Positions 26,144 to 47,040 of a stretch of 62,050 nt of DNA are shown piece after piece (position 1 is the first letter of the stretch; every line of letters begins with the position of its first letter). The stretch spans positions 1 through 62,050 of the forward strand of contig CADAZU010000013.1 in assembly GCA_902792535.1 (NCBI GenBank), read 5' to 3'. A model generated the notes under the pieces. The model did not search any database and had not been told where the DNA came from. It saw only the letters and a program-made list of their open reading frames with translations. Source of the stretch: an uncultured Bacteroidales bacterium. Lineage in GTDB: Bacteria; Bacteroidota; Bacteroidia; Bacteroidales; Paludibacteraceae. The translations under genes and the position numbers were made by a program.

Positions 26144-26148
26144 CACCG

Positions 26149-26222
26149 TGTTTTTCATGGTATTAGATTTAAGGTTAAGTAAAAAGATTGGGATGTCGGG
26201 AGACATCCTTCTTTGTTTTTAT
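26149..26222 (+). ncRNA. Candidate small RNA (about 75 nt) with terminator
   Basis: A strong promoter is followed by about 40 nt of AT-rich sequence and then a terminator-like hairpin (GGATGTC-GGGA-GACATCC) with TTCTTTGTTTTT. No conserved ORF is evident; a 27-codon frame from 26158 spans the hairpin but resembles nothing. The 5' end is estimated from the promoter. Confidence 0.45.
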
Positions 26223-42451: not shown

Positions 42452-42632
42452 ATTTTTCTTATTTTCTTATATTTTTGTAAGCAGCCATCGACGCCTACAG
42501 GCGTTCGATTGAGTCCGAGTGCATGAATGACGGCAGGAAGCGTGCTTACTGTCCGGCATACATGTGCTTGGGCTCTAGAGCCATTAGGCTCGTAGGCTGC
42601 GCATTTTCGATTTCTTTAAAATCTTTCAAAAG
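42452..42632 (+). ncRNA. Structured RNA element, copy A (candidate new small RNA family)
   Basis: Shares an about 181-bp block with 45872-46055. Upstream TTATATTTTTG is a -7-like box. Possible fold of the + strand: P1 GCAGCC (42481) with GGCTGC (ends 42600); P2 ATCGACGCCT/AGGCGTTCGAT; P3 CCGAGTGCATG/CATGTGCTTGG with G-U pairs; P4 CGGCAG/CTG-T-CCG capped by AAG/CTT; P5 GAGCC-ATTA-GGCTC. GTAAGCA can also pair with TGCTTAC. The G-U pairs favour the + strand. No ORF. Confidence 0.7.
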
Positions 42633-42988
42633 TACACCCGATAAGTAATCATAATAGCCGAATTACCCTTCGGCGCGGTGTACAGCTCGCCGAACGGACA
42701 CGCCGTCGGGCTGAACATCGCAAACCATCGTGGTGCCATACCGATCACGCCATCCACCTGCGCCATACTCATGCCCACGTCGATCAGCAGGTTGGGGGTG
42801 ATGGCTGGCAACACGATGTCGAAATACATCCGCCCTTTGCCCACCGGACCGCCGAAAAGCCCTTTGTCTCCTCCCCTCCACGGGGAGGTCGGGAGGGGCT
42901 TTTTACCAAAGTGCGGCAACGCGACGCGGTCTGTGGCTGAAAGACTCAGACTCCCGAGTAGCAGCACGATTACCCAAAGCCTCTTCAT
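42626..42988 (-). CDS. Small secreted protein of unknown function
   Basis: 120 residues: signal peptide (RLWVIVLLLGSLSLSA), then a Pro/Gly segment encoded by a palindromic repeat (42868-42904), then a beta-rich end (MYFDIVLPAITPNLLIDVGM, SAIMITYRVYF). The terminal aromatic strand might suggest an outer-membrane remnant. I do not recognise it. The start lies inside the 3' end of the glycosyltransferase gene (86-bp overlap), and the last codons are shared with the border of RNA element copy A. Confidence 0.5.
   Translation of the reverse strand: MKRLWVIVLLLGSLSLSATDRVALPHFGKKPLPTSPWRGGDKGLFGGPVGKGRMYFDIVLPAITPNLLIDVGMSMAQVDGVIGMAPRWFAMFSPTACPFGELYTAPKGNSAIMITYRVYF
42868..42904 (-). repeat. REP-like palindrome in the small secreted protein gene
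   Basis: CTCCTCCCCTCCACGGGGAG followed by GTCGGGAGGGGCTTTT. In frame. Confidence 0.75.
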
Positions 42989-44189
42989 TATCTTGAATCT
43001 CTTCGTTCAACATCTCTTCGAAAGCCGTCACGGAAGCCGCCAGACTATACCGCCGACCCGCCTGACGATACCGCTCTTCCATCTCCAGACGCTCCTCCGG
43101 ATGATCCAGCCAGTAATCGATCGCACGTGCCAGATCCTTCGGATTGCCGGGCATAAACAGACTCCGGCCGTCCAGCGCAAACTGCGGAGTGGCACTCGCC
43201 TCGCTGTTCGCAATCACAGGCACTAATCCCGTCGCAAAAGCCTCAATACAACTGATCGCCTCGCTCTCCATGTCGCTTGCGTGAACATACAGATCGGTCG
43301 TCAGCAACTCCTCGATCAACTCGTCCCGGCCCACGTAAATGAATTTCGGCGGATATTTCAGATCTTTACCCAACTCCACATACTTGTCGTACTCCGGTCC
43401 GCGACCCGCAAAAACCAACTGAATCCGGTCTCCGTACTTGCTGTATTTCAATGCGTTGATGATCACGTCCTGCCGTTTCTCCTGACTCAACCGACCGATC
43501 ATCATAATCTTGAAGACCTGCTTTTGACTTTCGACTTTTGACTTTCGACTTTCAGCTTTCTTCTCCCCCGCTTCCATGAACGCGTCCTGAATCCCGTTGC
43601 TGATCACATGGATCTTCGCCGTGTAACCGCGCGCAGCAATCATGTCGCCCATAAATTTAGAAGGAACGTGCACGTGACGCACGCGATTATAGATATTCCG
43701 GCGGAACGATTTGTAAAACAACTCGTTGAACCATTCCACTTTGCCCATGCTGACCGACGAAGTCATGTTCTCCGGCTGGATATGGAAAGCAGCCGTCACA
43801 GGCTTGCCGATTCGGCGGCAGTAACGGATCGCCTCCATCTCAATCCCGAACGGCACGAAAATATGTACTATATCCGCCCAGTCGCACGCGCTATGCACGA
43901 TCTCCTTATTATTATATGCGAAACTGAAATCGTGTTTGTCGCACAGCGGCTGGAATACCGGAATATTGAACTTTTTTGTGGTAAAATCCCCATCCGTCAA
44001 ATTGTTCTCCTTCGTACACTCTCCTTCCTTGGTCACTTGGTCCTTAGTCCCTTGGTCACTTGGAGTGTCCCAGCAAAGCACCCGTACTTCGTGCCCCCGT
44101 TTACGCAATTCCCCTGCAAAACGCTGTGCGGAAATACTGGTACCGTTGTTCGTCGTGTAGAAACTGTCAATTACAAATAAAATCTTCAT
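42903..44189 (-). CDS. Family 4 glycosyltransferase
   Basis: 428 residues, GT-B fold: N-terminal FVIDSFYTTNNGTSISAQRFAGELRKRGHEV, C-terminal KIMMIGRLSQEKRQDVII, and the nucleotide-sugar motif HASDMESEAISCIEAFATGLVPV. Probably transfers a sugar to a lipid or envelope acceptor. Two charged inserts (~40-56 and ~210-223: GTKDQVTKEGECTKE, KKAESRKSKVESQKQ) come from short tandem tracts. The last ~30 residues overlap the next gene and look non-native, so the true end may be earlier if a frameshift exists near 42990. Confidence 0.88.
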   Translation of the reverse strand: MKILFVIDSFYTTNNGTSISAQRFAGELRKRGHEVRVLCWDTPSDQGTKDQVTKEGECTKENNLTDGDFTTKKFNIPVFQPLCDKHDFSFAYNNKEIVHSACDWADIVHIFVPFGIEMEAIRYCRRIGKPVTAAFHIQPENMTSSVSMGKVEWFNELFYKSFRRNIYNRVRHVHVPSKFMGDMIAARGYTAKIHVISNGIQDAFMEAGEKKAESRKSKVESQKQVFKIMMIGRLSQEKRQDVIINALKYSKYGDRIQLVFAGRGPEYDKYVELGKDLKYPPKFIYVGRDELIEELLTTDLYVHASDMESEAISCIEAFATGLVPVIANSEASATPQFALDGRSLFMPGNPKDLARAIDYWLDHPEERLEMEERYRQAGRRYSLAASVTAFEEMLNEEIQDNEEALGNRAATRESESFSHRPRRVAALW

Positions 44190-44229
44190 TTTTTGTTCTT
44201 TTTTTGTGAGTATTTTTCAAAAGCGGCTG

Positions 44230-44246
44230 CAAAAGTACTGCTTTAT
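44230..44246 (-). promoter_or_regulatory. Probable promoter of the glycosyltransferase gene
   Basis: Minus strand AAAGCAG then TACTTTTG (44237-44230), the extended form seen at other promoters; no TTG at the usual distance. Confidence 0.5.
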
Positions 44247-44302
44247 AACGAATTAACGTTTTTCTTATTCATGCAAAAATTGTTCTTTTTTTAAGATTTT
44301 TC

Positions 44303-44333
44303 TTGCACATGTCAAAATTTTGTTGTACCTTTG
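44303..44333 (+). promoter_or_regulatory. Promoter of the AraC regulator gene
   Basis: TTG 44303-44305, 20-bp gap, TACCTTTG 44326-44333. A tandem AACCCGAAACCCGC tract fills the leader and the ATG is at 44397; the in-frame start at 44331 overlaps the -7 box and is rejected. Confidence 0.8.
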
Positions 44334-44396
44334 CACCCGAATTGTTCTAATTCATCACCCGCAACCCGAAACCCGCAACCAGAAACCCCTAATATT

Positions 44397-45290
44397 ATGA
44401 AGGAAAAACAGAACATTAACGACCAGATCATTACCGATTTCTCCGGCTTCAAACGGATGAATTTTATACCCGGTGAGAATGCCGTGGAAGACCTCGGCGT
44501 AATGGAAATTAACACGACGCAAGGACGTTTCTCGCAGTATATTATTCCCGAGCAGTACTCCGCTCCTACCTATTGCATGCAATTTGTTTTAAAAGGTGAA
44601 TTGAGGGTCATTGTGAATAATCAGCCATATACTATCAAAGCGAATGAGGGGTTTCTCCTTACGCCCGATTTCTTGGTGAAAAAGCCCGATAATATGGAGA
44701 ATCATGTCGAAATGCGGGTCTTGGTGCTTTCACGTAGATTTCTGGAGGAAGTCAATCCCCAATTTCCGCTTACGCTCATCTCCCATGTCTATGTCAGTCC
44801 GCATTGGCAAATGAGCGCGCAGAAACTCCAACGAACGATGCACTATCTCGATCTGCTTCAGGAGTTGATTGAGGATAAGGATCGCACGGCGGCGGTCCAT
44901 TTGGTGCGGTCGCTCTTCCATTACCTCGCGGGGGAAAATCTTGCGATGTGGAATGACAAACCGATGTCCCGCAACGAAGAAATCACAGGACGATTCATGC
45001 ACTTGCTTGATCTCTATTGCGATAAGCACCACAATCTCGACTGGTACGCAGAACAACTCTGCCTTTCCACTCGTTATGTCGCCAATACGGTCAAGGAAAC
45101 GCTTGGCATGACTGCCAGCGCCTGCATCGAGCATGCCCTCACCCGGCGTGCCAAAACGCTCCTTTGTACCACAACCCTCTCCATCCAGGAAATAGCCGAC
45201 CAGCTCGGCTTCCAGAACCAGTCTCATTTCGGTACTTTCTTCAAGCGCCACACTGACCTCTCCCCCGCCGCCTTCCGCAAAAAACTCTGA
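44397..45290 (+). CDS. AraC-family transcriptional regulator
   Basis: 297 residues: N-terminal cupin-like ligand domain (~20-130, MQFVLKGELRVIVNNQPYTI) and C-terminal AraC DNA-binding domain (~195-297, YAEQLCLSTRYVANTVKETLGMTASACIE, IQEIADQLGFQNQSHFGTFFKRHTDLSPAAFR). Resembles one-component regulators of the Prevotella/Bacteroides group. Target unknown; it is divergent from the glycosyltransferase operon and may control it. Confidence 0.93.
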   Translation: MKEKQNINDQIITDFSGFKRMNFIPGENAVEDLGVMEINTTQGRFSQYIIPEQYSAPTYCMQFVLKGELRVIVNNQPYTIKANEGFLLTPDFLVKKPDNMENHVEMRVLVLSRRFLEEVNPQFPLTLISHVYVSPHWQMSAQKLQRTMHYLDLLQELIEDKDRTAAVHLVRSLFHYLAGENLAMWNDKPMSRNEEITGRFMHLLDLYCDKHHNLDWYAEQLCLSTRYVANTVKETLGMTASACIEHALTRRAKTLLCTTTLSIQEIADQLGFQNQSHFGTFFKRHTDLSPAAFRKKL

Positions 45291-45871
45291 TATTACTCCC
45301 TCTGATATATACTTCTTTTGTCCTGTTTTTATTCTTCCATTGTGCCGACTGCCAGTCGGCGTCCTTTCGTTGTTCCCTTCGTTGTTCCTTTCGTTGTTCC
45401 CTTCGTTGTTCCCTTCGTTGTTCCCTTCGTTGTTCCCTTCGTTGTTCCTTTCGCTGGCATTTTTGCCGCCGTCTTTTTCTATGTCTATTGTGCCGCCTCC
45501 TCTCCGTTTTTTCTTTCTTGGTAGTTTCAGGGCAATTTAATTGCCCGCCTTTTTCGTCCATTAGCCCGGCATTTTATGCCGGTTGTTCCCTTTGGTGGCA
45601 TTTTTGCCGCCGGATTCCTCTTTGTCCTTTGTTCCGATATTTTAAGTTCTGTATGGCGTAAATTCGTTTAATTCGCGTAATTCGCCGTTTAAAAATTTTC
45701 TTCTGTTAAATCTGTGTAATCTGTGGACCTAAAAATTCGTTTAATTCGCGTAATTCGCCGTTTAATAAATTGTTGGTAATTGTGGATAATTGTTGACCAA
45801 TAAAAAATTTTTTTTATGTGCCCACTTGGCGGTCTTTTGAAGGCTTTTCCCCCGACCTACGCGCTGCATAG
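45291..45871. other. Non-coding low-complexity stretch
   Basis: No credible gene. It holds a TTCGTTGTTCCC tandem tract (45359-45455), scattered CCGCC-TTTTT segments, and a 32-bp perfect direct repeat (45661-45692 = 45734-45765, AATTCGTTTAATTCGCGTAA...). A long open frame across the first tract is only repeat translation. Confidence 0.7.
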
Positions 45872-46055
45872 ATTTTTCTTATTTTCTTATATTTTTGTAA
45901 GCAGCCCATCGGTGCCTATTTAGGCAATCGATGGAGACCAAGGTCATGAATGACGGCAGGAAGCTTGCTTACTGACCGGCATACAGGGACTTGGGCGCAA
46001 GAGCCATTAGGCTCGGGGGCTGCGCATTTTCGATTTCCTAAAGAGCCTTCAAAAG
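45872..46055 (+). ncRNA. Structured RNA element, copy B
   Basis: Aligned to copy A from the TTTTTCTTATTTTCTTATA leader to the terminal TTCAAAAG. The helices are kept although bases differ: P2 is CATCG-GTGCCTA/TAGGCAAT-CGATG, P3 CCAAG-GTC/GAC-TTGG, P4 CGGCAG/CTG-A-CCG with loop CTTG, P5 unchanged. P1 GCAGCC/GGCTGC is unchanged. It lies upstream of the orphan gene at 46270. Confidence 0.7.
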
Positions 46056-46115
46056 GGTTTATCTTTGTTTTTGTTCTTAAAATTATCGCAACACTACTTT
46101 TTCTCCCTCCAAAAT

Positions 46116-46146
46116 TTGCATATTCCAAATATTTTTTGTACCTTTG
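46116..46146 (+). promoter_or_regulatory. Promoter of the orphan gene at 46270
   Basis: TTG 46116-46118, 20-bp gap, TACCTTTG 46139-46146. Leader of about 115 nt. Confidence 0.75.
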
Positions 46147-46269
46147 CACCCGAAATGAAGTCCGAATCGACCCTAAATAAGGCCTGCATAAGGGTACCTT
46201 CGTGGGCGTCCTAGACTTTGTTAATTTATACTACGACACAAAAGACTGAAACACAGCACATTACGCTCC

Positions 46270-47040
46270 ATGGCAATGCACTTGAAAACAAAGGTAATTA
46301 GCTGCTTGAAATGGGATGGATTCGATTTTGTCTCACTTCCGCGGTCAGCCACGCCTCATAAACGGGGTGTGTACTATTTCCATGCCTGCGTGGGAGTGAA
46401 AGCCCTGTGGGGAGCCATGGACACACGAAAAGAAGGTCAGCACTACAAAAAGCGCATCGTCGTCCGCCCTTCGCGCTTCCGTGACGGACTCTTCGAACTC
46501 TACACGTACCATTTCCCGACCCACTGGTCCGCCGCCTGTGTCGCCAACCGCGAGTTGATCAAAGAAGCCCAACGTCTGGCGCATGCCATCGAGCATGACC
46601 ATTCCTTGGAAGCTCTCACTTGGCGCGTGCGGTTCTTCAACCATTATTTTACGGTCGTCAAAGGTGGCGCGAAGCCCGAAGAAGGCATGAAGCGCTATGC
46701 CCGTTTCTACCAATATACCTACGTCTCCATCTACCGCCAACTCCAAGCGGAACGTAAGAAAGCCGCCGAACCCGAACCTATTGTTTTTGAACCGGTTATA
46801 ACAAGTCATGAAAATGAAAGTATTACTAATTATATTAGGTGCCGTTTTGGGCATCGGAGTACTTACTCTTACCGTGCTGGCACATCCGGCATTTGGCACT
46901 TTCCGTCCTGTCTCCCAAGAGCGGATTCAGGCTTCGCCGAACTACCGAAATGGTCAGTTCCGAAATCAGGAGCCGACACCGCAATTCACAGGAAAGGAGA
47001 AAGGCTCCTTCGGGGCTATATGGCGCTTCTTGACGGCTAA
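46270..47040 (+). CDS. Unrecognised basic protein; 3' end overlaps the MBL gene
   Basis: Open for 256 codons, but only about the first 180 residues look like a folded protein (GVYYFHACVGVKALWGAMDT, YKKRIVVRPSRFRDGLFELYTYHF, MKRYARFYQYTYVSIYRQLQAERKK). The remainder overlaps the signal peptide region of the next gene by 233 bp and is probably out-of-frame readthrough; a stop exists in both other frames close to 46800. No signal peptide or known domain that I can name. The long leader and an RNA element upstream are unusual. Confidence 0.6.
   Translation: MAMHLKTKVISCLKWDGFDFVSLPRSATPHKRGVYYFHACVGVKALWGAMDTRKEGQHYKKRIVVRPSRFRDGLFELYTYHFPTHWSAACVANRELIKEAQRLAHAIEHDHSLEALTWRVRFFNHYFTVVKGGAKPEEGMKRYARFYQYTYVSIYRQLQAERKKAAEPEPIVFEPVITSHENESITNYIRCRFGHRSTYSYRAGTSGIWHFPSCLPRADSGFAELPKWSVPKSGADTAIHRKGERLLRGYMALLDG

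Follow-up and report, generated by a model that had tools for sequence, protein, structure and literature searches.

Miniature inverted-repeat transposable elements (MITEs) and the stem-loop repeats of bacteria, with enterobacterial repetitive intergenic consensus (ERIC) sequences as one example, are short, multi-copy, intergenic and folded, have inverted ends, and include gene-less copies alongside a gene-bearing form. Repetitive extragenic palindromic (REP) sequences and bacterial interspersed mosaic elements (BIMEs), associated with Y1 transposases of the REP-associated tyrosine transposase (RAYT) kind, are likewise folded and frequently lie in inverted pairs, and in TnpB and IscB elements with omega RNA a small nuclease gene accompanies element ends that fold. 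One survey reports 92 stem-loop repeat families of bacteria (PMC2267715). We describe a family of structured repeats that shares these features, represented by two copies in a 62,050-nucleotide stretch (the window) of contig CADAZU010000013.1 from an uncultured Bacteroidales bacterium of the family Paludibacteraceae. Unlike MITEs and stem-loop repeats, its arms are ~140-nt four-way junctions maintained by covariation, and the gene in its long form encodes a GxxExxY nuclease in place of a known transposase. On balance, and with modest confidence, we read the window copies as solitary, gene-less arms from a family of small insertion elements linked to GxxExxY genes and found in one genus of rumen-type Paludibacteraceae, from the fold, the pairing of arms, the enclosure of the gene in long pairs, and the filled and empty sites described below.

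An earlier reading of the window from its letters alone (the sequence-only reading) had proposed a two-copy structured RNA element, and the two related copies were verified at 42452-42632 and 45872-46055. They are ~85% identical in alignment, with long invariant blocks; ATTTTTCTTATTTTCTTATATTTTTGTAAGCAG, CATGAATGACGGCAGGAAGC (an invariant block), and GGCTGCGCATTTTCGATTTC are common to both, and both terminate at TTCAAAAG. The folding energies of both copies beat all 200 dinucleotide shuffles (Table 1). The count of two holds within the window, but the genome from which it comes (82.65% complete) has 10 strong DNA matches, both window copies included, plus variants with different stems that retain TTTTTGTAAG and GCATTTTCG as boundary phrases. 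The window type, T1, has the stem GCAGCC/GGCTGC, T2 has GGCGG/CCGCC, T4 has GCAG[CT]CAT/ATG[AG]CTGC, and there are further stems such as GGCAG/CTGCC. The suggestion that the copies belong to no known RNA family stands: the whole window matches only FopS and three tRNAs in Rfam at the gathering score, all outside both copies, and at a relaxed threshold the segment 42300-46200 gives two matches, both outside the copies and under the gathering score. A relaxed Rfam search of four further loci (L187, L267, L189, and L287) returned a tRNA and two sub-threshold matches, none on the arms.

The fold was analysed with two models, R1, built from 15 T1 sequences, and R2, built from 70 R1 matches that are mostly of other types, and 118 sequences were aligned to R2. 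Instead of the five possible helices first noted, there are four helical parts: a closing stem, then one long arm between two short ones. Standard pairs occupy 89.7% of paired cells in the 118-sequence alignment, compared with 55.4% after shuffling and 31.5-43.6% when the structure is slid; two-sided changes occur in 1382 cells versus 437 shuffled, and the covariation score is 0.774 versus 0.197 shuffled and 0.064-0.140 slid. The alignment leans toward the model because it was fitted to it, and the structure was derived from the same strand, which also favours the model. Given the covariation score and the complete turnover of stem sequence, there is little doubt that the fold is conserved, and the helix-preserving differences noticed between the two window copies recur across the family.

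The strand starting with TTTTTGTAAG, which reads outward in the arm pairs described below, folds better than its complement in all 117 sequences compared (one incomplete match of the 118 was left out), with RNA and DNA parameters alike. There are 201 G-U cells and 58 A-C cells in the 118-sequence alignment, and when the pair sets are taken from the opposite strand G-U still exceeds A-C in T1 (45 versus 14) and T4 (10 versus 2). Because of the better fold and the G-U excess, the folded molecule is likely one strand, as either RNA or single-stranded DNA.

The boundary phrases select 79 distinct stretches, 56 of which satisfy a closing-stem filter; most of these have the closing stem and the short, long, and short arms, and in a few the minimum-energy fold deviates. 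In a family-wide sample, R1 matches 31 of 300 genomes, all in the window's own genus (one of 33 genera), and since at most 10 candidates were scored per genome, the per-genome copy numbers are lower bounds. An exact 20-mer from the core is found in GTDB in 16 stretches, 12 of them in Paludibacteraceae or Bacteroidales metagenome-assembled genomes and four in Lolliginicoccus or Corynebacterium; no viral contig contains it. The promoter-like box of the sequence-only reading is present in both copies as TATTTTTG but is not a conserved feature, with TANNTTTG found in just 38 of 117 family members (one match has too short a flank to score). Upstream of many arms there is also a small hairpin of varying stem sequence, bounded by TTTTTGTRAG and GYATTTTTG phrases; a simple fold test finds it in 41/117, and it lies just upstream of the arms in L187, L046, and L047.

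Arms are commonly paired, with 35 of 47 pairs of neighbouring matches less than 1.2 kb apart arranged head-to-head, their 3′ sides outward, and with 70 of the 118 matches belonging to such a pair. The gaps are 54-255 bp in 27 pairs, a short form with no room for a nuclease gene, and 506-719 bp in seven, with a single gap of 422 bp in L268. A GxxExxY PD-(D/E)XK gene lies inside all seven long gaps (L187, L189, L193, L200, L216, L267, and L270), five of which were retrieved solely through the RNA search and two through a protein search; the 422-bp gap holds none. Gene-bearing and gene-less copies have inverted ends in common, as MITEs and insertion elements do. The long pairs occupy differing sites, including panD/tgt (L187 and L200), an ABC transporter gene/ruvB (L189), and gap/rnhA (L267), the neighbour names being read from translations without family searches. 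In the window's own genome, an arm and an open nuclease frame of 178 amino acids lie between apparent mlaE and mlaF; both are also present at this site in genome G308, and the arm alone in G075 and G121. By a rough count with a simple open reading frame (ORF) caller, an opposite-strand gene follows the arm's 3′ side in 26 of 46 instances, in 20 of them within 47 nt.

The association also holds when loci are fetched by the nuclease gene. Among 20 such loci, from which several nuclease loci already found by the RNA search were left out, R1 detects an arm at E<1e-4 in seven of the nine near relatives, with nuclease genes at least 50% identical to that of the window's genome, and in none of the 11 others (Fisher p 5e-4). 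R2 gives an arm at the same threshold in two of the 11 distant loci (L254 and L255).

The enclosed gene belongs to the GxxExxY family, for which we know of no assigned job. The protein encoded in the window's genome matches TIGR04256 with 106.6 bits (cut-off 35) and PF13366 with 102.1 bits (cut-off 22), and the PD-(D/E)XK motif D...ExK (D84, E97, and K99, numbered by the first row) is invariant in nine aligned proteins, so that its product is a predicted PD-(D/E)XK nuclease. A PD-(D/E)XK enzyme together with a four-way junction is reminiscent of Holliday-junction resolvases; the structure predicted for the enzyme is of poor quality. Mobility and structured ends depart from the family as described: our literature searches returned no account of GxxExxY genes as mobile or with structured ends, and the few papers found, PMC8934634 among them, give no role. 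In three genomes (G373:C9:91047, G401:C1:72351, and G385:C22:338274), the GxxExxY match falls within an 883-amino-acid open frame, a possible in-frame insertion or fusion.

Of 118 Bacteroidota genomes sampled, 59 carry GxxExxY genes, often in several copies; by genus the count is 41 of 67. An inverted repeat spans the gene with z >4 (20 shuffles per locus) in 12 of 30 Bacteroidota loci, several of the CACAGAG type, and none of those 30 is matched by R2 at E<=0.1. We tentatively raise the possibility, with well under even confidence, of a new class of mobile element in which a stand-alone GxxExxY PD-(D/E)XK nuclease and outward four-way-junction arms, as RNA or extruded single-stranded DNA, act in recognising and refilling empty sites; the Bacteroidota GxxExxY genes, some with other inverted repeats, would then form a phylum-wide set with clade-specific ends.

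Both filled and empty forms were found for the panD-tgt site and for each window copy. panD was matched in 89 of 101 genomes, and among the 30 best matches 25 have panD and tgt separated by -2 to 70 nt, as read from the DNA itself, with tgt directly next by eye in one more (L297). The remaining four carry inserts of 427-853 bp: arms and gene in L275 (the same site as L200), an arm with a decayed gene in L279, other arms around a distant GxxExxY gene in L287, and a near GxxExxY gene with no recognisable arms in L291. L187, from the RNA search, is a further case with a 969-bp insert. Copy 1 is present in G059 and G018 and absent from G064, G063, G075, and G150; copy 2 is absent from G064 and present in G059, the latter on the basis that matching coordinates identify G059 contig C35 with L075. 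The earlier suggestion of a mobile or duplicated RNA gene therefore holds as to mobility or duplication, but support is lacking for an RNA gene that stands alone and has a promoter of its own conserved across the family.

For the insertion element, we propose that the nuclease would recognise the folded arm on the outward-reading strand, as extruded DNA or as a transcript, and may drive copying of the element into short intergenic gaps, with gene-less pairs and solo arms presumably copied in trans; copy 2 would be an arm of this kind that is nested with another structured repeat (type B). Several observations weigh against this reading. Among 26 near-class nuclease loci (at least 50% identical to the protein of the window's genome, one per place, sorted by hand), just seven have outward arms on both sides and nine on one side; eight have gene-facing arms or pairs beside the gene (L188, L194, L203, L207, L208, L220, L221, and L268), so the arms do not in every case terminate a unit that encloses the gene, and two (L271 and L269) have no or weak arms. 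Most window-type copies in the window's own genome are without a nuclease gene. T2 has no G-U excess on opposite-strand pair sets (7 versus 9), and although all 36 pairs show two-sided change, the mean among shuffles is 34.2 and 37 of the 500 attain 36, so that this count by itself proves nothing. Several copies end TAAATCG...CGATTTA, and the flanks are too diverged or A/T-rich to read a target-site duplication; neither this duplication nor the exact junction could be fixed, because the intergenic DNA is too diverged, and movement of the element was never seen.

The arms might instead be multiplied, host-serving structured RNAs, either small RNAs or 5′ leaders, with the nuclease gene as one neighbour of several. 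Several T2 arms lie ~20-60 nt upstream of co-directional start codons (apparent tgt, ruvB, and a sugar kinase), arms in L188, L194, and L207 lie directly upstream of the nuclease gene itself, the arm at mlaE is retained in the window's genome, G308, G075, and G121, and the preference of folding for one strand also fits. We nonetheless consider a host role rather unlikely, as sites and copy number vary between species, inverted pairs predominate, the promoter is not conserved, and all seven pairs with gaps of >500 bp enclose a member of one and the same gene family. Spread of REP- or BIME-like repeats by another enzyme, such as a Y1 transposase, the GxxExxY genes being carried along as passengers, would account for many intergenic, folded copies in inverted pairs, and is in our view somewhat less probable again: the arms here are ~140-nt four-way junctions, much larger than REPs, which are given as 20-40 bp in PMC3733652, and the single Y1_Tnp match in the window's genome, at 20.2 bits, falls below the cut-off of 23, although a Y1 transposase may lie in the missing part of that genome, which is 82.65% complete. 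An omega-RNA-like arrangement, in which outward transcription of the arm would yield a scaffold and the flank after it a guide for the nuclease, is suggested by the outward strand folding best in both arms of a pair, each ending beside the flank, and by the gene between the arms of the long form. We give this very little credence, since there is no conserved promoter, the guide is hypothetical, and we know of no RNA-guided nuclease of the small PD-(D/E)XK kind; TnpB and IscB differ in that they belong to another nuclease family, the present element has two inverted arms, and both guide and transcript are hypothetical here. If the insertion element reading is right, an orphan nuclease family would gain a role open to testing through its link to elements whose ends are defined and covary strongly, and the many folded intergenic repeats of this genus would be accounted for.

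Table 1. Positions of the two arms and of the outer repeat within the window
Feature	Coordinates	Strand	Details
Copy 1, solo T1 arm	42470..42613	+	R1 161.5 bits; R2 126.8 bits; fold z -7.5
Copy 1, closing stem	42481-42486/42595-42600		
Copy 1, arm P2	42487-42509		
Copy 1, long arm P3	42511-42575		
Copy 1, arm P4	42578-42591		
Copy 1, boundary phrase TATTTTTG	42470-42477		
Copy 1, boundary phrase GCATTTTCG			
Copy 2, T1 arm	45890..46036	+	R1 177 bits; R2 144.8 bits; fold z -4.0
Copy 2, closing stem	45901-45906/46018-46023		
Type B repeat around copy 2, left end	45834..45848	+	CTTTTGAAGGCTTTT; read from sequence
Type B repeat around copy 2, right end	46040..46055	+	AAAGAGCCTTCAAAAG; coreless occurrences in genus

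Copy 2 is enclosed by CTTTTGAAGGCTTTT...AAAGAGCCTTCAAAAG. The flank that the sequence-only reading had included in the element, up to TTCAAAAG, is indeed present in both copies, but these bases form one end of a separate repeat (CTTTTGAAGGCTTT...) surrounding copy 2, and many genomes of the genus carry the segment 46038-46090 with no core. In L287, both arms flanking the distant GxxExxY gene are bounded by a type-B-like closing stem, and each folds into that stem plus three arms (z -4.9 and -7.0). Type B probably represents another family of arms with the same architecture, and copy 2 probably either a nested or a hybrid version.

Other features of the window include 7.7 tandem copies of the 12-bp unit TCCCTTCGTTGT at 45362-45453, just upstream of copy 2, and phased repeats of AATTCGTTTAATTCGCGTAATTCGCC and ATCTGTGTAATCTGTGG at 45660-45770, which also adjoin arms elsewhere in the same genome and are similar to the CACAGAG-type repeats near GxxExxY genes of other genera. 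FopS, a small RNA family (RF04319), lies at 26148-26221 with 73.3 bits. Downstream of copy 2, ORF 46270-47040 has no match in Pfam or PADLOC, and in many of 16 relatives the segment around its start (46099-46802) matches several places in the genome, so that it constitutes a separate multi-copy family of genes or leaders.

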